A DNA stretch of 37,888 nucleotides from Bifidobacterium breve (GTDB lineage Bacteria; Actinomycetota; Acidimicrobiia; Acidimicrobiales; Ilumatobacteraceae), in assembly GCA_945878785.1 (NCBI GenBank), contig CAMDVC010000002.1, positions 1 to 37,888 on the forward strand. The letters run 5' to 3'. Shown one piece after another: positions 14,017 through 29,504 of the stretch (positions are counted from its first letter, which is position 1; each line of letters starts with the position of its first letter). The notes below the pieces were generated by a model. It did not search any database and was not told where the DNA came from. It worked only from the letters and a program-made list of their open reading frames with translations. The position numbers and the translations under genes are program-made.

Positions 14017-14829
14017 TTATTTAGCGATTGAGGCGCGAGGTTCAGTGCCTACGGCGCCTGGTTTTTCAGCAAGCATCGCAAAATCTTTTTCAATGCTGTC
14101 GAACGATGATGTTCCAGTTTCTAATGCCTTAAAGATTTCAGATTCTGGTGAACACCATGTCTCATACTCAGACATCCACTCTTCACTTGCAGTGTCTGCC
14201 CCAGAGGTTGTGTATCGCACATGGCATACAACGGACAGAATTTCCGCTTCAGTAAGTGCTCCACCAGCTTTTTCGCCTTGCATCGGCATGGCGTTTCCGT
14301 TGTATGAAAGTGGGGCGTGTGCGCCACCTTCACGTTTTGGATTGCCGTACAACTTAAGGCCAGATGCCACGTACTTTTGACTACCGGTGTAAACGAAGTT
14401 CAACATGTCTTCGATGTGAGGGAATGTCTTCATGACTTCACCTTGATACAAAACGCGACCAGCTCCGCCAGCTCCGGCAGCTCCATGACAACCTGCACAC
14501 GAACCATAGGTAGCAGCTCCGATCGACATTGGGCCAGCAATTACTTTCTCTGCTGGCTTTAGAGCAATGAGGTACAACATTGCCCACGCAGGAAGTAGAG
14601 CCAAAGTGGTCATTGCCCAGAACGGAATCTTTTTGCGTGTCTTAGCGGCAACAACATACGCAGGGTCTGGTATCACAGCTTTCGGCGCCGGGGCTTCTTT
14701 TGCCTTTGCTGGTGCAGTTGACGCGGCAGGAGAAGCGACTGCTGGAGTGCTGTCGCTGGTGCTGTCGCCAGACGCCTCTGCACGACGGGCTTTGGAGCGA
14801 TTCAGAAGGTGCTCGGGAATCTCGGTCAC
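14017..14829 (-). CDS. Membrane-anchored monohaem cytochrome c
   Basis: 270 residues. The cytosolic N-terminus carries the tag IPEHLLNRSKARR (4-16), then an Ala/Pro-rich linker and one membrane helix (about 69-90, IPFWAMTTLALLPAWAMLY). The outer domain has one CAGCH haem-c site (111-115) and a likely Met ligand in NAMPMQGEKAGG (181/183). It could pass electrons from complex III to an oxidase or be an accessory subunit. The start is GTG with GAGAGG 8 nt upstream. It is divergent from the complex III operon. The same N-terminal tag occurs twice in the subunit-IV-like protein across the divide. CxxCH requires haem attachment on the outer side. Confidence 0.85.
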   Translation of the reverse strand: MTEIPEHLLNRSKARRAEASGDSTSDSTPAVASPAASTAPAKAKEAPAPKAVIPDPAYVVAAKTRKKIPFWAMTTLALLPAWAMLYLIALKPAEKVIAGPMSIGAATYGSCAGCHGAAGAGGAGRVLYQGEVMKTFPHIEDMLNFVYTGSQKYVASGLKLYGNPKREGGAHAPLSYNGNAMPMQGEKAGGALTEAEILSVVCHVRYTTSGADTASEEWMSEYETWCSPESEIFKALETGTSSFDSIEKDFAMLAEKPGAVGTEPRASIAK

Positions 14830-15160: not shown

Positions 15161-15637
15161 ATGATCTCGATTGACATACTTAGATGGCCAGGGATTAACC
15201 AGGCTTTTTTGTTCTCTTTTTTTCTCACAACTGCGATGGCTCTCATCGTCATTCCTCTCGGGAAGCGACGCCCTGTCGGTACCCAGTCAACGTGGGGTGA
15301 AGCAATGGTAGGTTCCGTTTACACATTCTTTGTGTTGTTTCTTGCGTTTGGTGTCGTACCTCACCAATTCCTTGACCATGCCGACAAAGATCTCGGTTGG
15401 CGTAAAGACAAACTGCTTCTTGGCCCTTTTGACATTTTGAAGCCCAAGGCTTTCGGCGGCAATTTCCCTATGACAATTAGCTACGAAGCAGTGCGAGACA
15501 TTCTGGCAGTCGTTCTTCACGGATACTTCATTGCTCTCATGGTGTTTATGTTTGTTTGGTGGCAAAAGCGCGGAGAACGTGGCGTAAAAGAACTTGAAGT
15601 GTCCACATACGGCCGACCATTGGTGAAAAGGGGCTAA
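15161..15637 (+). CDS. Unknown 3-TM membrane protein, first gene of the complex III operon
   Basis: 158 residues with three predicted helices: about 13-34 (INQAFLFSFFLTTAMALIVI), 51-70 (VGSVYTFFVLFLAFGVV) and 114-135 (ILAVVLHGYFIALMVFMFVW). A conserved-looking loop between helices 2 and 3 reads HQFLDHADKDLGWRKDKLLLGP. I do not recognise the family. The ATG at 15161 is preferred over the ORF-track start at 15095 because the hydrophobic protein begins there. A ferredoxin gene follows after 5 bp. Position suggests a membrane anchor or accessory subunit for the ferredoxin or cytochrome b. Histidines near the membrane edges could bind a cofactor, but this is a guess. Confidence 0.75.
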   Translation: MISIDILRWPGINQAFLFSFFLTTAMALIVIPLGKRRPVGTQSTWGEAMVGSVYTFFVLFLAFGVVPHQFLDHADKDLGWRKDKLLLGPFDILKPKAFGGNFPMTISYEAVRDILAVVLHGYFIALMVFMFVWWQKRGERGVKELEVSTYGRPLVKRG

Positions 15638-15642
15638 ACCGA

Positions 15643-16056
15643 ATGGCACGTACAGACGCAAACCCACCAATGCCGGAATGGTCAACTGAGTATCAACTCG
15701 TTGAGGTGGATGCTGATTACCTTGGAAAGGCAGTCAAGCCAAAGCAATTCATTCATATTGATCAAAGTGAATGCATCATGTGTGAAGGTTGTGTTGATAT
15801 TTGTCCGTGGAAGTGCATCCACATGGTGACGACAGATGCAATTGCGGAAGCGCAAGACACTGAAATGCCTGGGTCAGATCCTTCTGACAACGTTCTCTTC
15901 ATCATTGATGATGATGTGTGCACTCGTTGCGCACTCTGTGTCGACCGTTGCCCAACAGGAGTAATCATCCTGGGCAAAGTTGGCGCACCAGATCCAGATG
16001 GTGACAGTCATATCCGAACTAACAATCATGGCTACGGCTATGGAATGCGACTCTGA
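15643..16056 (+). CDS. Dicluster 2x[4Fe-4S] ferredoxin
   Basis: 137 residues with two C-x2-C-x2-C-x3-C-P cluster motifs: CIMCEGCVDICP (C44, C47, C50, C54) and CTRCALCVDRCP (C93, C96, C99, C103). The motifs are separated by a 38-residue insert, longer than in small bacterial ferredoxins. N-terminal ~35 and C-terminal ~25 residues extend beyond the core. No signal peptide or membrane segment is seen, so it should act on the cytosolic side. It lies between an unknown 3-TM protein and cytochrome b, with 5- and 11-bp gaps. A ferredoxin is not a standard component of bc1 operons. NuoI is encoded separately downstream, so this is not complex I's copy. Confidence 0.9.
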   Translation: MARTDANPPMPEWSTEYQLVEVDADYLGKAVKPKQFIHIDQSECIMCEGCVDICPWKCIHMVTTDAIAEAQDTEMPGSDPSDNVLFIIDDDVCTRCALCVDRCPTGVIILGKVGAPDPDGDSHIRTNNHGYGYGMRL

Positions 16057-16067
16057 GGTAAAGGCCC

Positions 16068-16850
16068 ATGGCAAAAGTTCTTGATAATCCACGTCCCACT
16101 CTCAAAGAGCGGGCGGCCCAATTAGGCAATCAAATGCAGGGAAGTCAGGCATGGAATGCAATTTTCCGTCCTGGTTCAATCTTCCGTAAGGGCTACACAG
16201 ACAGCCCGCGTAACCGTTCGTACGTCATCATGAACTCGGTGCTCTACCACTTGCACCCAGTCAAGGTAAAGCGTCATGCAGTCAAAGTCAGTTACACACT
16301 GTGCCTTGGTGGTCTCAGCTTCTTCTTGTTTATTTTGCTCACTGTTACAGGTATTTTCTTGATGTTCTTCTACCGCCCTACAGGTGCTGCAGCGTGGCAA
16401 GACATTCAAACATTGCAGACATCTGTCACGTTCGGATTACTTGTTCGAAACCTGCATCGATGGGGAGCCCACCTCATGGTGTTGTCAACATTCCTGCACA
16501 TGTCTCGCGTGTTTTATCACGGTGCATACAAAGCACCACGTGAATTCAACTGGGTCATTGGCATTGTGCTGTTGACACTCACATTGCTTCTCTCATTTAC
16601 TGGTTACTTGTTGCCGTGGGACCAATTAGCCCTGTGGGCTGTAACCGTTGGAACCAACATGATGGGCTACACGCCAGTATTCGGATCGCAAGTGCGATTC
16701 GTATTGCTCGGCGGCGTTGAAATTGGTTCTGAAACCTTGCTTCGTTGGTACGTACTGCACGTGCTTCTACTTCCATTCGTCATCGTTATCTTTATGGCTA
16801 TCCACTTCTGGCGTGTTCGTAAAGACGGCGGAATTTCCGGACCTTTGTAA
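16068..16850 (+). CDS. Cytochrome b6-like subunit of a quinol:cytochrome c reductase
   Basis: 260 residues with four membrane helices and the N-terminal half of cytochrome b. Haem ligand pairs are H130/H144 (x13) and H231/H246. The second spacing is x14, the b6f type. The protein ends RKDGGISGPL, close to the end of plant b6. Before helix 1, LCLGGLSFF aligns without gaps to YCLGGITLT of spinach b6, placing Cys79 at the position of Cys35, which binds haem c_n (c_i) covalently. LPWDQLALWAVT is the Qo-side motif. The C-terminal half is the next gene. This differs from the single long QcrB of mycobacteria and streptomycetes. Confidence 0.93.
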   Translation: MAKVLDNPRPTLKERAAQLGNQMQGSQAWNAIFRPGSIFRKGYTDSPRNRSYVIMNSVLYHLHPVKVKRHAVKVSYTLCLGGLSFFLFILLTVTGIFLMFFYRPTGAAAWQDIQTLQTSVTFGLLVRNLHRWGAHLMVLSTFLHMSRVFYHGAYKAPREFNWVIGIVLLTLTLLLSFTGYLLPWDQLALWAVTVGTNMMGYTPVFGSQVRFVLLGGVEIGSETLLRWYVLHVLLLPFVIVIFMAIHFWRVRKDGGISGPL

Positions 16851-16865
16851 TCGAGAGGGCATCAA

Positions 16866-17594
16866 ATGACTGAAATACCTGAACACCTACTGAAGCGAGC
16901 ACAAGCAGCTCGCGACAAAGCGGCCGAAGATGCCACAACCCCAGCCGCGGCTGGTGGCGACTCACGTATCCCTGACCATTTGCTCGAACGCAGCAAGGCT
17001 GCTCGTGGTGATGGAGGCGCGGTAGCGGTTGCAGAAAAGGCATCAGCAGTTGTTACTGCAGTACCGTCAGCCGGATTGCCTGTTGGCGCTGGTCCTGGCG
17101 GACATACTCAACGTTTATTGACCGTTGTTAAGTCCGGTTCTATTCAAGAAACAAAGGCAGCACCAGTTGACAAAGTTCATACCTGGCCTCACTTGTTGGC
17201 TGTTGAATTTGTTGCAGGTCTTGCATGTACAGCGTTCTTGTTTCTTTTCTCATGGTTTGTCAATGCACCATTGATGCATGCAGCTGACTTCAACAAAACC
17301 CCTAACCCTTCAAAGGCTCCGTGGTATTTCCTTGGGTTACAGGAACTTCTCACCATGTTCCACCCGTTGGTTGCTGGAGTGACGTTGCCTGGAATGGGAC
17401 TTATTATCCTTGTCTTGGCTCCTTTTGTTGACAAAAATGCTTCGAACAAACCTGAAGATCGGAAATGGATGACATCAATGTTCACCTTGTTCCTGATGTT
17501 CTGGGCAGTGCTCGTCATCATTGGTTCTTTCTTCCGCGGTCCTGGATTCAACTTCACTTTCCCATGGCGTGACGGAATTTTCTTTGAATTGTGA
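16866..17594 (+). CDS. Subunit-IV-like C-terminal half of cytochrome b with duplicated N-terminal tag
   Basis: 242 residues. The core (about 109-223) has three membrane helices and the Qo region NPSKAPWYFLGLQELL. The Qo tetrapeptide reads APWY (151-154) rather than PEWY. Ahead of it lie about 100 non-membrane residues holding two copies of a tag, IPEHLLKRAQAAR (4-16) and IPDHLLERSKAAR (35-47), separated by an Ala-rich linker. A third copy is on the nearby cytochrome c. With the b6-like protein it would form the menaquinol-oxidising core. The 15-bp gap to the upstream gene and the shared fold leave little doubt about the core. The tag function is unknown. Confidence 0.9.
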   Translation: MTEIPEHLLKRAQAARDKAAEDATTPAAAGGDSRIPDHLLERSKAARGDGGAVAVAEKASAVVTAVPSAGLPVGAGPGGHTQRLLTVVKSGSIQETKAAPVDKVHTWPHLLAVEFVAGLACTAFLFLFSWFVNAPLMHAADFNKTPNPSKAPWYFLGLQELLTMFHPLVAGVTLPGMGLIILVLAPFVDKNASNKPEDRKWMTSMFTLFLMFWAVLVIIGSFFRGPGFNFTFPWRDGIFFEL

Positions 17595-17658
17595 TGAAGA
17601 CATTGAATACCCCCAACATCATTCGACGTAGCGACAAAAAAGCAAGGAACGTATAGTC

Positions 17659-18507
17659 ATGAGCACCGGAATTGTCATCGCAATTGTTGTCATTGCGGCC
17701 ATCGTTTTTGGCCTGATTGTTGTCCTCACAACTTCGCGCACTTCTGAAGTTCGCGGTGCGGGGGCATTGTCGCGTGAGACTCGTTCACGCAACACAAAGA
17801 CAAACATCGCAGACTCCGCTCCAAGTGGGCGTGATGTTGAAGCTCAAGCAGTTGTTCGTTCTACATCCGTAGTCAAGGCAGCGCCTGTTGAATTGGCCCC
17901 GTGGGTAGCACCTGACGAAGAAGCACTTGGCGTCTCACGTCGCATGTTTTTCAATCGTGCAACAGTTACCTTGCTCACAGTGAGTGTCGGAGCATTCGGT
18001 GCTTCTGTAGTTGGCTTTCTCTGGAAGGGCGCTGAAGGTGGTTTCGGTTCCAAAATCAATGCTGGAAAAGTTGACGACGTTATTCAATTGATTCGTCAGA
18101 ATAAAGGCTTCTTGTATCTGTCCGAAGCACGTGCGTGGGTGACCGAGTATCCAAAAGATGCACTCGGCAAGGGTCAGGCTGTTTATGCCGGCCAAGCTCC
18201 TGTGTATTCTGGAATGCAGGCAGGCATTGTTGCGTTGTATCAAAAGTGCCCTCATCTTGGATGTCGAGTTCCTGAATGCAAGAGTTCGCAATGGTTTGAA
18301 TGCCCATGCCACGGTTCTCAGTACAACCGTGTCGGTGAGAAAAAGGGTGGACCAGCACCACGCGGTATGGATCGTTTCGGAGTATCTATTGCGAACGGTC
18401 TTCTCACTATTGATACTGGCGCAGTTTTTGCAGGCCCATCAATTGGTGTTAACACCACTGGTCAAGAAGCCGAAGGACCACACTGCGTCGGCGGAGGAGA
18501 GCACTAA
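17659..18507 (+). CDS. qcrA: Rieske iron-sulfur protein of complex III
   Basis: 282 residues with two hydrophobic helices: 4-24 and about 101-121. The second is preceded by SRRMFFNRA, resembling a Tat-type recognition sequence. The Rieske domain has CPHLGC (C197, H199, C202) and CPCHGS (C215, C217, H218). C197, H199, C215 and H218 would hold the [2Fe-2S] cluster, and C202-C217 would form the disulfide. It takes an electron from quinol at Qo and passes it to cytochrome c. The 64-bp gap upstream is the largest in the operon, and AAGGA precedes the ATG. Confidence 0.93.
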   Translation: MSTGIVIAIVVIAAIVFGLIVVLTTSRTSEVRGAGALSRETRSRNTKTNIADSAPSGRDVEAQAVVRSTSVVKAAPVELAPWVAPDEEALGVSRRMFFNRATVTLLTVSVGAFGASVVGFLWKGAEGGFGSKINAGKVDDVIQLIRQNKGFLYLSEARAWVTEYPKDALGKGQAVYAGQAPVYSGMQAGIVALYQKCPHLGCRVPECKSSQWFECPCHGSQYNRVGEKKGGPAPRGMDRFGVSIANGLLTIDTGAVFAGPSIGVNTTGQEAEGPHCVGGGEH

Positions 18508-18509
18508 TT

Positions 18510-19574
18510 ATGTTTGCAGCAACGAGTACCTCCATTGCATGGGTAATTCTTCTTATCTCGCTTGCGGGGTGGGCGCTCTACGCATTCTCTAACATCCGGT
18601 CATCACGCGCCGAAGTCGGTTCTGAGCAAAAACTTGCTGCAAACCGCAAGGAATATTACGACGATGAAGTTCTTGAAGGTCCACGCTTAGAGCGGGTCCA
18701 AGTTCTTGGGCTTTTTTTCCTTGTCATCATCACCCTTGCACTGCCTCTGTATTGGGTCCTTGAACCTGCTCGCACAGCTGGTGCTCAATTTGGATTCGAA
18801 AAGCGTTTCACCGAATGGGGAGCAGAACTGTTCGCTTCCACTGCTGATGGTGGATATAACTGTTCAGGTTGTCACGGCGGCATGAAGGCAACTGGTGGCG
18901 TTGCTGCGTATGCAATGACTGATCCAAAAACATCTGAAGTGAAATCGGTGTCATGGAAGGCTCCTGCGCTAAACACTGTGATGTACCGATACACAGACGA
19001 CGAGATTCGGTTTATTTTGAACTACGGCCGTCCGTTTTCTCCGATGTCAGCGTGGGGAACCATCGGTGGAGGTCCACTAACCGATCAGAACATCACCACT
19101 CTTATTGAGTACTTGAAGTCAATCCAGATTCCGCAAGATAATTGCGTGGAGCCGCGTGGCCCGTACAACCCAACATGTGTTGATGGCAAGTTGCCCGTAG
19201 CAGAAAACAAAGCGATTATCACTGAAGCACAACGTCTAGTTGACAACGGTACTCACGCAACTCTTGGTGAATCGCTTTTCAATCTCAATCTCAATTCAGG
19301 TGCGTACTCATGCGCCCGTTGTCATACAAAGGGTTGGTCGTATGACGATCCACAAGCAACTGGCGGCGGCGCTTTTGGGCCAAACCTCACAGGTGGTTCT
19401 TCAGTCCGACAGTTTCCGAATCAGTCAGACATGATTGCGTTTATTAGCGGCGGCTCGGAACTGGGCAAGCGCTATGGCGAACAAGGTCAGGGCGGTGGTC
19501 GAATGCCGGCCTTTGGTCAGGTGTACACACAAGATCAACTAAAGTTGATTGTGGAATACGTGCGGAGTTTGTGA
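18510..19574 (+). CDS. qcrC: Membrane-anchored dihaem cytochrome c of complex III
   Basis: 354 residues with two N-terminal helices (7-27, 64-84), then an outer region with two haem-c sites, CSGCH (118-122) and CARCH (268-272). Candidate Met ligands are in SPMSAWG and GRMPAFGQ. It probably accepts electrons from the Rieske protein, as dihaem QcrC does in actinobacteria. Classical QcrC has a single helix at the other end of the protein, so this is a functional counterpart and the symbol is provisional. The segment between the haem domains has two extra Cys (NCVEP, TCVDG). It starts 2 bp after the Rieske gene. Confidence 0.88.
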   Translation: MFAATSTSIAWVILLISLAGWALYAFSNIRSSRAEVGSEQKLAANRKEYYDDEVLEGPRLERVQVLGLFFLVIITLALPLYWVLEPARTAGAQFGFEKRFTEWGAELFASTADGGYNCSGCHGGMKATGGVAAYAMTDPKTSEVKSVSWKAPALNTVMYRYTDDEIRFILNYGRPFSPMSAWGTIGGGPLTDQNITTLIEYLKSIQIPQDNCVEPRGPYNPTCVDGKLPVAENKAIITEAQRLVDNGTHATLGESLFNLNLNSGAYSCARCHTKGWSYDDPQATGGGAFGPNLTGGSSVRQFPNQSDMIAFISGGSELGKRYGEQGQGGGRMPAFGQVYTQDQLKLIVEYVRSL

Positions 19575-20389
19575 TGTTGTCAGCGCTACTTGCAGTCGGC
19601 TGGGAACCCGAAATCCGCGGATGGATCATTGTCATCATCAGTGTTGCGGTGCTGATGGGCTCTACATATCTGATCTTGGGTACCAACCTTGGCGCTCGCC
19701 TTGGTTTTCTGATTGCTATCACTGGCTTAGCCGGATGGATGATGTCTATGGCAATTATTTGGGCTGTGTACGGCATCGGTCTTAAGGGACCAGAACCAAC
19801 GTGGCATCCTCACGAGCCAATTGCCATTGTTCGCGATGGATCTCTCCTCGATCGAACAGAAATTGTCGAGAGCTCTAGCGACCTCAAAGGACTTGACTCT
19901 GTTGCGGCAGCAAAGAAGATTTCTGATCAGTTGGAGAGCGAAGGATGGGAATCTCTCGCGGAATCTAATCCACAACGTGGTCAAGCAGTTGCCTCAGCAG
20001 ACGAAATCATTCAGATTGAAGCAGAGGAATTTGCGGCTGGAGAATATGTAGCTGTTGCCGTGTACGACAAAGGTGGCGAACGTTATCCAAAACTTGGCGA
20101 CTCGATTGACTTCTTGGCCTTCAAGCACGAACCGCGATACGCAATTGTTGAAGTCGCCCCGTTAGTAGTTCAGCGCGCAGAACCGGGTCGTGCACCTGCA
20201 CGTGCTCAGATTGATGAAACTCAACCACGCCGTTATGTAGTGATGATTCGTGATTTGGGTGCAAAGCGTCGGCCTGCGTTCCTCATCGGCTTTGGTTCAG
20301 GATTGATTTTCTTTTTGTTGGCGTGGGTCTTGCACCGCCGCGAAGCGTTGCTGCGTAAAAATCTTGCACTCACGGCCTCGGTGGTCTAA
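19574..20389 (+). CDS. Unknown 3-TM protein between complex III and complex I genes
   Basis: 271 residues. Two helices lie near the N-terminus (WIIVIISVAVLMGSTYLIL; FLIAITGLAGWMMSMAIIWAV). A soluble, acidic domain of about 150 residues follows, then a final helix (FLIGFGSGLIFFLLAWVL) with a basic tail. The soluble part contains SADEIIQIEAEEFAAGEY and RYAIVEVAPLV, without a recognised domain. ATG at 19574 overlaps the stop of the dihaem cytochrome gene (TGATG) and is chosen over GTG at 19571. nuoA follows after 3 bp. Position suggests a complex III accessory subunit or a link between complexes III and I. No cofactor motif is visible. Confidence 0.75.
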   Translation: MLSALLAVGWEPEIRGWIIVIISVAVLMGSTYLILGTNLGARLGFLIAITGLAGWMMSMAIIWAVYGIGLKGPEPTWHPHEPIAIVRDGSLLDRTEIVESSSDLKGLDSVAAAKKISDQLESEGWESLAESNPQRGQAVASADEIIQIEAEEFAAGEYVAVAVYDKGGERYPKLGDSIDFLAFKHEPRYAIVEVAPLVVQRAEPGRAPARAQIDETQPRRYVVMIRDLGAKRRPAFLIGFGSGLIFFLLAWVLHRREALLRKNLALTASVV

Positions 20390-20392
20390 ATC

Positions 20393-20842
20393 ATGGGCCA
20401 GTACCTTCCGATAGTTGCCTTGATGGTGCTGGCAATTCTGTTTGCTGTTATCAGTCTGTTTGCGTCGAAGTTGCTTGCGCCTAATCGTCCGAACTCCGCC
20501 AAAGAAGCGCCGTATGAATGTGGAATCGTGCCTAGTCGTGAACCGCCTGAGCGCTTCCCAGTCAGTTTCTTTGTTGTCGCCATGTTGTTCATCATGTTTG
20601 ACATTGAAATTATCTTTGCGTACCCGTATGCCGTTGATCGTCAGTTTCTTGGCACATACGGCTTTTTAGAAATGGTTTCCTTCAGCGCCGTGTTCTTCGT
20701 GGCATTCGTGTACATGATCGCTCGCGGAGCTCTTGACTGGGGCCCAATACAGCGAGCAAGCAAACTTGAAACACAAGAGTCACTTGGCTTCACTACAACA
20801 AGTTCTGTGCGAGTTGTAGGTTCAGAAGGCAGAGTTGCCTAA
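20393..20842 (+). CDS. nuoA: NADH-quinone oxidoreductase subunit A
   Basis: 149 residues with three membrane helices. It has the family loop [11 protein letters not shown] (C43) and [13 protein letters not shown] (D70, E72 in helix 2), close to the quinone cavity of complex I. It is the first of fourteen nuo genes and lies 3 bp after the unknown membrane protein, so complex III and complex I genes form one block. Stop and next start overlap (TAATG). Confidence 0.95.
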
Positions 20843-27625: not shown

Positions 27626-28851
27626 GTGGTGTAATTTTCGCTATTGATCCAATGTTGGAAGGCAATGTCCTCTGGACGCCGCTACTGATAGTCCTTGTAA
27701 AAGTTCTTCTCGTTTTCGTTGTCGGTTTAGTAGCAACAATGTTGATGGTGTGGTTCGAACGCAAAGTCATTGCCGGCATGCAGAACCGAGTTGGCCCAAA
27801 CAAGGCTGGTCCTTGGGGAATCTTGCAAACTCTGGCAGACGGAGTCAAGTTGTTCTTCAAAGAAGACCTCATTCCGGAACGTTCTGATCGGTTCATGTTT
27901 CGCTTGGCTCCGTATCTTGCGTTGGTTCCAGCATTTCTTGCATTTGCGATTATTCCTCTCGGCGGAGATTTCCGCGACGGTAAGGGCGGTCTCGTCACCT
28001 TGTTCGGACAACAGACTCGACTGCAATTAGCCGACCCTCCTGTTGGGGTGTTATTCGCTTTGGCAATTTCATCAATTGCTGTGTACGGGATCATGTTGGC
28101 CGGTTGGTCGAGTGGATCCAAGTACCCATTGCTCGGCTCTGTTCGTGCATCGGCGCAGATGGTTTCATATGAAGCAGCTCTTGGCTTGTCTCTCGGTGCA
28201 GTTCTGTTGGTGTCTGGAACTCTCTCAACTGCTGGCATTGTCAATCTGCAATCGTCAATTGGAAACTGGAACATTGTGGCAACCGGTTTCGTACCGTTCG
28301 TCATCTTCCTCATTGCTGCTACCGCCGAATTGAATCGACCTCCGTTTGACTTGGTAGAAGCCGAACAAGAACTTGTGGGTGGATTTAACACTGAGTATTC
28401 GTCAATTCGATTTGCTTTGTTCTTCCTCGCTGAATTCATGAACACCGTCACGATGTCAGCATTGATCGTGACTCTGTTTTTTGGTGGTCCTCAACCAATC
28501 GCTATTGGAACCACCACTTTGGATATTCCGTTTATTCCGAATGCAATTGAGGGCACTGTCTGGCTTCTTCTCAAAGTGCTCGTCTTCCTCTATGTCTACG
28601 TATGGTTCCGCGCCACCCTTCCGCGTTTCCGTTATGACCAACTCATGGATTTGGGTTGGAAGATTCTGATTCCTGGCTCCCTTGGTTGGTTCATGCTTCT
28701 TGCTGCTCAGCGAGTAGGGCGAGATGCAGGATGGGATCAAATATTGGTCACTCTTGTTACTGCTCTTGTTCTCATCGGCGGCTACGGATTACTCCTTGCC
28801 GCACAACATGTCAGTCGCGTTAATCGTGAGAAGGATGGAGCGAGCTTCTAA
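27622..28851 (+). CDS. nuoH: NADH-quinone oxidoreductase subunit H
   Basis: 409 residues with about eight helices. It is the membrane subunit that joins the quinone chamber to the proton pumps. [62 protein letters not shown] and the C-terminal [14 protein letters not shown] are diagnostic. Starts with GTG, overlapping nuoG by four bases (GTGA). Confidence 0.97.
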
Positions 28852-29504
28852 TGGGCTACTTCGGAGGATTTCTCGTCACCATGCGTCAGCATGGTGCACG
28901 TAACAAGGTCACTACTGAATATTCAGGCGGCCGTATATTTCGTCGTAAAAACAACGACACCAAAGACGAAAAGATTGACAAGCCAGAGCGCATGCATGGC
29001 CGTCATGTTCTGAATCGTTACGAAGATGGAATGGAAAAGTGCATCGGTTGCGAACTGTGCGCCGGTGTGTGTCCTGCAAAGTGCATTTATGTGCGCGGAG
29101 CCGACAATAACCCTGATAACCCAACTTCACCTGGTGAGCGCTTCGGTTTCATATACGAAATTAATTATCTTCGTTGCATCCATTGCGATTTGTGTGTCGA
29201 GGCATGCCCAACAGAAGCAATTACTGAGACAAAATTATTTGAATTCTCATTTACTAATCGCCAAGATGCCATTTATACAAAGTCTGAATTACTTGTTGAT
29301 AACCATGGCTTGCCGCAGCATCTGCCGTGGGAAGACTGGCGCCCAGGCGAGGACCAAAACACATCGGGCTGGATGCGTGCAACCGCGTCTGCAGGAAGTG
29401 AGGATTTTGTTGGCGTCGTTTCATGGGGTGGGGAACTCGGGTACGGTGTTCGCGCTGCCGAACCAACGCAAGACATCAGCGATGAATCCGAGTCAAAGAA
29501 CTAA
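28851..29504 (+). CDS. nuoI: NADH-quinone oxidoreductase subunit I
   Basis: 217 residues with two [4Fe-4S] motifs for N6a and N6b: [15 protein letters not shown] and [26 protein letters not shown] between them is the family pattern. The C-terminal ~60 residues extend past the cluster domain and are Trp/acid-rich ([10 protein letters not shown]). It is a peripheral-arm subunit delivering electrons to N2 in NuoB. Confidence 0.96.

Follow-up and report, generated by a model that had tools for sequence, protein, structure and literature searches.

Seven open reading frames (ORFs) that encode a b6f-type complex III together with a dicluster ferredoxin (Fd) lie on the plus strand at positions 15161–20389 of the stretch analysed here, the first 37,888 nucleotides of contig CAMDVC010000002.1 (hereafter the window) from a marine actinobacterium of the family Ilumatobacteraceae. 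They specify, in order, an unnamed membrane protein (U1), Fd, a cytochrome b6-like protein, a subunit IV-like protein, a Rieske protein, a cytochrome c with two haems and another unnamed membrane protein (U7), with intergenic gaps of 5, 11, 15, 64, 2 and −1 (or −4) bp. Pfam recognises Fer4 (twice), Cytochrome_B, Cytochrom_B_C, Rieske and Cytochrom_C (twice) among the products, and U1 and U7 give no Pfam match above cut-off. The b6 of this operon is the single cytochrome b (one match to PF00033) in the organism's own assembly of 1.33 Mb, and the enzyme is the only complex III of this bacterium as far as a 78% complete genome shows.

Gene content and distribution of the operon

The seven genes are as follows.

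15161..15637, plus strand: U1, unnamed subunit of 158 amino acids with three transmembrane helices (AlphaFold helices; no Pfam or NCBIfam family)
15643..16056, plus strand: Fd, dicluster [4Fe-4S] ferredoxin, 137 amino acids (Fer4 twice)
16068..16850, plus strand: cytochrome b6-like subunit, type A, 260 amino acids (Pfam Cytochrome_B; b-haem ligands)
16866..17594, plus strand: subunit IV-like protein, 242 amino acids, with a long cytoplasmic N-terminal tail (Cytochrom_B_C)
17659..18507, plus strand: Rieske [2Fe-2S] subunit, 282 amino acids (Pfam Rieske; second motif CPCHGSQYN)
18510..19574, plus strand: membrane-anchored dihaem cytochrome c, 354 amino acids, with CSGCH and CARCH (Cytochrom_C twice)
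19571 (GTG) or 19574 (ATG)..20389, plus strand: U7, unnamed subunit, 272 amino acids (AlphaFold; no family)

Homologues were sought in 119 genomes of the class Acidimicrobiia and in 198 genomes across the phylum; operons were extracted, and iterated profile searches then yielded 58 loci of the kind found in the window. Gene content, conservation, losses, motif co-variation and conserved residues were all computed directly. Three types of b6 can be told apart: type A, with a stand-alone Fd upstream; type B, which shares 51–58% identity with type A and often occurs in the same genomes; and type C, mostly 41–47% identical, which has neither a stand-alone Fd nor an Fd-flavoprotein. A b6 match was present in 116 of the 119 class genomes, with an Fd match just upstream in most of them, and the pairing recurs in many families outside the class (b6 67–76% and Fd 33–50% identical). 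The complete order U1-Fd-b6-IV-Rieske-cytochrome c-U7 was found in 46 of the 58 type-A loci, from Acidimicrobiia and other actinobacterial classes, a recurrence that excludes a chance grouping by homology. The gene order, positions and tight spacing described in the original prediction were confirmed. Six further loci keep the same order minus Fd only, and the remaining six are cut by contig ends or have no recognised U7. Wherever both genes of an Fd-bearing type-A locus could be scored (50/50), Fd adjoins b6 on the same strand; no fusion of Fd with b6 or U1 was seen among the type-A loci. Three families of the same taxonomic order (f2, f4 and f5) lack both type-A b6 and Fd; what they carry instead is a QcrB-like protein with about 35% identity. 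The original prediction had been staked beforehand on conservation of Fd beside cytochrome b in related genomes, and there the gene is conserved.

U1 lies upstream of b6 in 58/58 type-A loci and U7 is the last gene in 52/58, many distant U7 members being recognised only through their N-terminal hairpin. Both are more constant members of the complex than Fd, which is dispensable. AlphaFold gives U1 three confident membrane-length helices (pLDDT 87.5), with a basic cytoplasmic loop and a C-terminal tail that ends YGRPLVK. U7 (pLDDT 93.1) has a transmembrane hairpin, a soluble alpha/beta domain that would, judging from the charges, lie on the p side, and a C-terminal transmembrane helix. Neither model matched a PDB fold at E≤0.001. 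Fd keeps all eight of its cluster cysteines in 52/52 type-A proteins. Its nearest other protein in the genome is NuoI, encoded at 28851–29504, and the two have similar C-terminal ends (HGYGYGMR in Fd and GWGYGVR in NuoI).

The subunit IV tail and the ferredoxin

Further features of the subunit IV gene, and the genes that flank the operon, are listed here; the complex I genes lie directly downstream.

17106..17147, plus strand: TQRLLTVVKSGSIQ, putative docking motif for Fd at residues 81–94 of subunit IV (co-variation with Fd)
16875..16898, plus strand: tag copy 1, IPEHLLKR, subunit IV N-terminus (tag pattern)
16968..16991, plus strand: tag copy 2, IPDHLLER, subunit IV N-terminus (tag pattern)
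14017..14829, minus strand: divergent monohaem cytochrome c, membrane-anchored and tagged IPEHLLNR at its N-terminus (Cytochrom_C just below cut-off)
20393..20842, plus strand: nuoA, which opens the adjacent complex I operon and is a neighbour outside the complex (Pfam/NCBIfam)

The cytoplasmic tail of subunit IV carries the motif TQRLLTVVxxGSIQ, the core of which, R[LMV]L[TAGS][VMLIF][VI], is present in all 90 Fd-bearing type-A sequences (lowest motif profile score 20.3, median 42). The seven Fd-less sequences scored 22.7 (L033), 6.5 (L197), 0.3 (L032), −10.3, −12.2, −14.6 and −26.2, so that six of them fall below every Fd-bearing sequence and the seventh, L033, which still matches the core, stands near the bottom. 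One other sequence (L200, −5.7), whose contig ends at b6, was counted in neither group. L197, which is only partly degraded (ERLLSVI), came from genomes added after the motif had been noticed, and the Fd-bearing sequences added at that stage all fit the motif. The change is local, since almost every Fd-less sequence retains the flanking DKVxTWPHL. Those losses for which subunit IV is available are confined to three families (f70, f9 and f23), with the motif changed in all of them and weakly in f23, and the formal independence of the co-variation is accordingly small. Among the sites compared upon loss of Fd, this tail showed the only striking change. A scan of b6 across these natural knockouts was not used: the only positions altered in three Fd-less lineages are Y43 and L225, about as many as chance would yield over 142 conserved columns. 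The universal presence of the motif alongside Fd and its degradation in six of seven sequences without it favour docking on subunit IV and make the motif a candidate docking site for Fd.

A small ferredoxin that merely shares a transcript with complex III, and serves the cell as a general soluble carrier, might also be found in such a position. Small ferredoxins are common, and one genome (G106; L107 and L108) has a second, identical-looking Fd copy about 380 kb from the operon and without the other operon genes. This explanation is nonetheless highly improbable: the gene occupies a strict slot between U1 and b6 across classes, it is absent together with type-A b6 from genomes of the same order, and the subunit IV motif decays with it. 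The view of the original prediction that the ferredoxin is a dedicated partner is upheld by its position upstream of b6 in nearly all type-A genomes, its absence from genomes that have only QcrB and the decay of the motif upon its loss, and Fd is very probably a docked partner of the complex.

The original prediction had missed the divergent cytochrome c at 14017–14829, which shares an N-terminal tag, IP[ED]HLLxR, with subunit IV, where it occurs in one or two copies. Across seven whole genomes the tag marks subunit IV, the divergent cytochrome c and one other site only, and a reversed control pattern gave no matches in the same genomes. The monohaem cytochrome gene is divergent to the operon in several relatives as well; its product is a probable associated electron carrier, and the tag may recruit it and subunit IV to one partner.

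Cytochrome b6 and the direction of electron flow

Three residues of b6 bear on the wiring of the complex.

16248..16250, plus strand: codon of His61, the counterpart of Kuste4571 His43, which is a proposed ligand of a b haem at the dimer interface
16302..16304, plus strand: Cys79 codon, attachment site of haem cn (ci), aligned by eye with b6f Cys35
16818..16820, plus strand: codon of Arg251, the counterpart of Kuste4571 Arg247, which lies next to that proposed haem

The b-haem histidines of b6 are H130/H144 and H231/H246; of the characteristic spacings that distinguish b6f from bc1 cytochromes, theirs (14 and 15) are of the b6f type. His61 is invariant in 59 type-A, 12 type-B and 8 anammox-type b6 proteins, and Arg251 likewise in all three groups. 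The haem cn cysteine is found in 59/59 type-A and 8/8 anammox-type proteins and in 0/12 of type B. In the anammox complexes Kuste4569-4573 and Kustd1480-1485, as modelled by Hauser and colleagues, the iron-sulphur chain of an NAD(P) oxidoreductase leads to a proposed b haem that takes one histidine from each b6 and sits near haems bn and cn (PMC12954380). We reached the corresponding operon of Kuenenia hertensis from the solved Rieske fragments; its b6 has His43 and Arg247 at the published numbers, these align with His61 and Arg251 of the window, and the C-terminus, HFWRVRKDGGISGPL, is identical in the two proteins. A tree of 93 b6 proteins, anammox homologues included, places type A as a clade (98/95) whose sister group unites type B with the anammox type (89/68), and one larger clade (91/86) contains them all; the deep join has moderate support only, and long branches meet there. 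One sequence from a genome whose type-A operon is Fd-less (L090, G018) is a b6-subunit IV fusion that has the interface histidine and no adjoining Fd or flavoprotein.

We favour, at a probability of roughly 55%, a menaquinol:cytochrome c oxidoreductase with Fd docked on its cytoplasmic (n) face and electrons passing most likely inward. The operon product would have b6f architecture, with a split cytochrome b and haem cn, to which the dedicated 2x[4Fe-4S] Fd would dock, held in part by the motif in the subunit IV tail; on that subunit Fd most likely serves as a port for electrons on the n side. Its clusters would exchange electrons with haems cn and bn, perhaps by way of an additional b haem that both b6 subunits hold in common at His61. 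In the likeliest direction, reduced Fd would supply one electron at Qn and the Q cycle the other, from haem bn; menaquinone would be reduced, and low-potential electrons of the cytosol would join respiration at complex III. U1, with its cytoplasmic C-terminal tail, and U7, with its putative p-side domain, would be small structural subunits. We infer the docking, wiring and direction, the haem at His61 and menaquinone as the quinone of this organism; Ilumatobacter coccineum YM16-304, of the same family, is a menaquinone maker by annotation (PMC3910706).

Several lines of evidence favour this arrangement: the conservation of His61, Arg251 and Cys79 as in anammox complexes modelled with an iron-sulphur path to haem cn, the retention of an R[LV]LGVV core by type-B relatives with a fused Fd domain (RLLGVV, RVLGVV or a one-letter variant in 12/12 subunit IV sequences), the sister relation of type A to NAD(P)-linked types, and the absence of Fd from genomes of the same taxonomic order that lack type-A b6. 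The n face of b6f near subunit IV is, in addition, a predicted docking site for ferredoxin and ferredoxin-NADP reductase (FNR), and haem cn has been suggested as the entry point of ferredoxin electrons (PMC9342900, PMC13287000). Subunit IV has its N-terminus on the stromal side in b6f, and Fd/FNR and PetP have been placed on that face (PMC13287000, PMC9342900).

The same docked Fd could also work in reverse, quinol oxidation being bifurcated between the Rieske protein and cytochrome c on one branch and, on the other, haems bp and bn/cn, which would reduce Fd, and Fd would then supply reductant to the cytosol. The sister NAD(P) oxidoreductase complexes are proposed to run in this way, making NAD(P)H with Rieske potentials above +300 mV (PMC12954380). 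The second Rieske motif of the window, CPCHGSQYN, has the potential-raising Ser/Tyr pair of high-potential Rieske proteins, which occurs in nearly all type-A Rieske proteins and is less complete in types B and C; Fd is, furthermore, present in genomes without any 2-oxoacid:ferredoxin oxidoreductase (POR, PF01855). Against this, with menaquinol as donor the acceptor would need a potential of about −300 mV or lower and would work against the membrane potential, a flavoprotein or NAD(P) site that could hold the product is missing from type A, and haem cn, lost in type B, is kept, which favours a working Qn site. Electron input at Qn would be energetically simple, output would require a branch of very low potential, and we consider the reverse direction unlikely.

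Other observations weigh against the favoured arrangement. Fd has been lost independently at least five times, as five separate losses within type A of the b6 tree show, while U1, U7 and all core subunits were kept, and one Fd-less lineage (f23) retains most of the subunit IV motif. His61 and Cys79 are retained in 8/8 Fd-less type-A b6 proteins; these residues hence do not depend on Fd, and His61 was rejected as a marker of it. Type-A Fd does not conserve Arg511 of Kuste4570, a residue proposed to touch the propionate of the haem, and it was dropped as a shared feature. With the type-A Fd profile, type-B Fd domains reach best-domain scores of 45–67 bits, barely separated from the 45.5 bits of the window's NuoI, so that position counts as much as sequence for a special kinship with type-A Fd. 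No POR was found in several Fd-bearing genomes that are nearly complete (G031, G039, G071 and G117), and the enzyme is found in Fd-bearing genomes and in Fd-less ones (G111, G036 and G018) alike; POR was rejected as the partner of Fd since its presence shows no correlation with Fd.

The repeated loss of Fd while the complex remains would suit a structural, assembly or redox-sensing subunit of the n face that carries no electrons in turnover, for which PetP, a non-redox n-side accessory of b6f, offers a precedent (PMC9342900). The invariance of the eight cluster cysteines and the use of the same kind of module in a redox chain by neighbouring clades argue otherwise, and such a role appears improbable. 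More broadly, and as a tentative proposal a little short of an even chance, a ferredoxin-linked complex III, with Fd on the subunit IV tail and a haem common to the two b6 subunits that carries electrons towards haem cn or away from it, may extend across deep-branching Actinomycetota and be either a descendant or the ancestor of the anammox complexes linked to NAD(P).

Relation to known complexes

The original prediction named the complex as the best candidate in the window for an undescribed system. In the open-licence literature searched we found no account of a ferredoxin-bearing complex III from actinobacteria or Ilumatobacter, and none of a Rieske/cytochrome b complex linked to NAD(P) from actinobacteria. 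The window complex is nevertheless not without relatives, for by b6 sequence it and the NAD(P)-linked complexes of anammox bacteria fall in one clade. The anammox complexes share with it the split into b6 and a subunit IV-like protein, the haem cn cysteine, the interface histidine and arginine, and the gene for an iron-sulphur protein directly upstream of b6 (Kuste4570 type), and they stand in the sister position in the b6 tree. They have, however, an FAD/NAD(P) subunit where the window operon has only the 137-residue dicluster Fd, and a hexa- or octahaem cytochrome c in place of a dihaem one (two CxxCH); U1 and U7 were not found in them, and the window host is aerobic. A full anammox-type operon for Rieske, NAD(P) oxidoreductase and b6 also occurs beside an ordinary b6 on a contig labelled Neomarinimicrobiota (L147, 68% Rieske identity), by either transfer or mis-binning.

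Type-B actinobacterial complexes (L035, L040, L046, L048, L072–L076 and L087–L089) likewise have an Fd domain encoded immediately upstream of b6, the R[LV]LGVV core and the interface histidine. Their Fd domain is C-terminal in a GltD/NfnB-like flavoprotein of the FAD/NAD(P)H type of about 600–700 residues, whereas Fd of the window is a separate protein; the haem cn cysteine is lost and neither U1 nor U7 was found, while the window complex has all three. The b6 also exceeds the cut-off for ExtP (NF040969; 304.6 versus 290 bits) and subunit IV falls far below that for ExtQ (NF040970; 54.5 versus 150). ExtP and ExtQ come from a selenite/tellurite reduction operon, whereas the window genes lie in a complex III operon beside nuo. 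A plasmid search gave only distant b6/QcrB matches.

The actinobacterial QcrCAB complex agrees in its role as complex III and in its Rieske protein and dihaem cytochrome c, but has one long QcrB (about 35% identity) and no ferredoxin, in place of a 260-residue b6 plus Fd. To complex III of a large group of aquatic and soil bacteria, the window system adds three constant unnamed parts: U1, U7 and the tagged cytochrome c. Whether ferredoxin feeds b6f directly via haem cn is a question of decades' standing in photosynthesis, in which the two partners meet only weakly and transiently; a respiratory relative that has an operon-encoded Fd, a putative peptide for its docking and Fd-less lineages as natural controls makes the question directly testable, and culturable aerobes such as Ilumatobacter coccineus carry the system. 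With plant and cyanobacterial b6f it shares the split of b6 and subunit IV, the b-haem spacing, the haem cn cysteine and a proposed n-face docking of Fd near subunit IV, but there cytochrome f is present and Fd is supplied by photosystem I, whereas the complex of the window is respiratory, with a dihaem cytochrome c and a co-encoded Fd.

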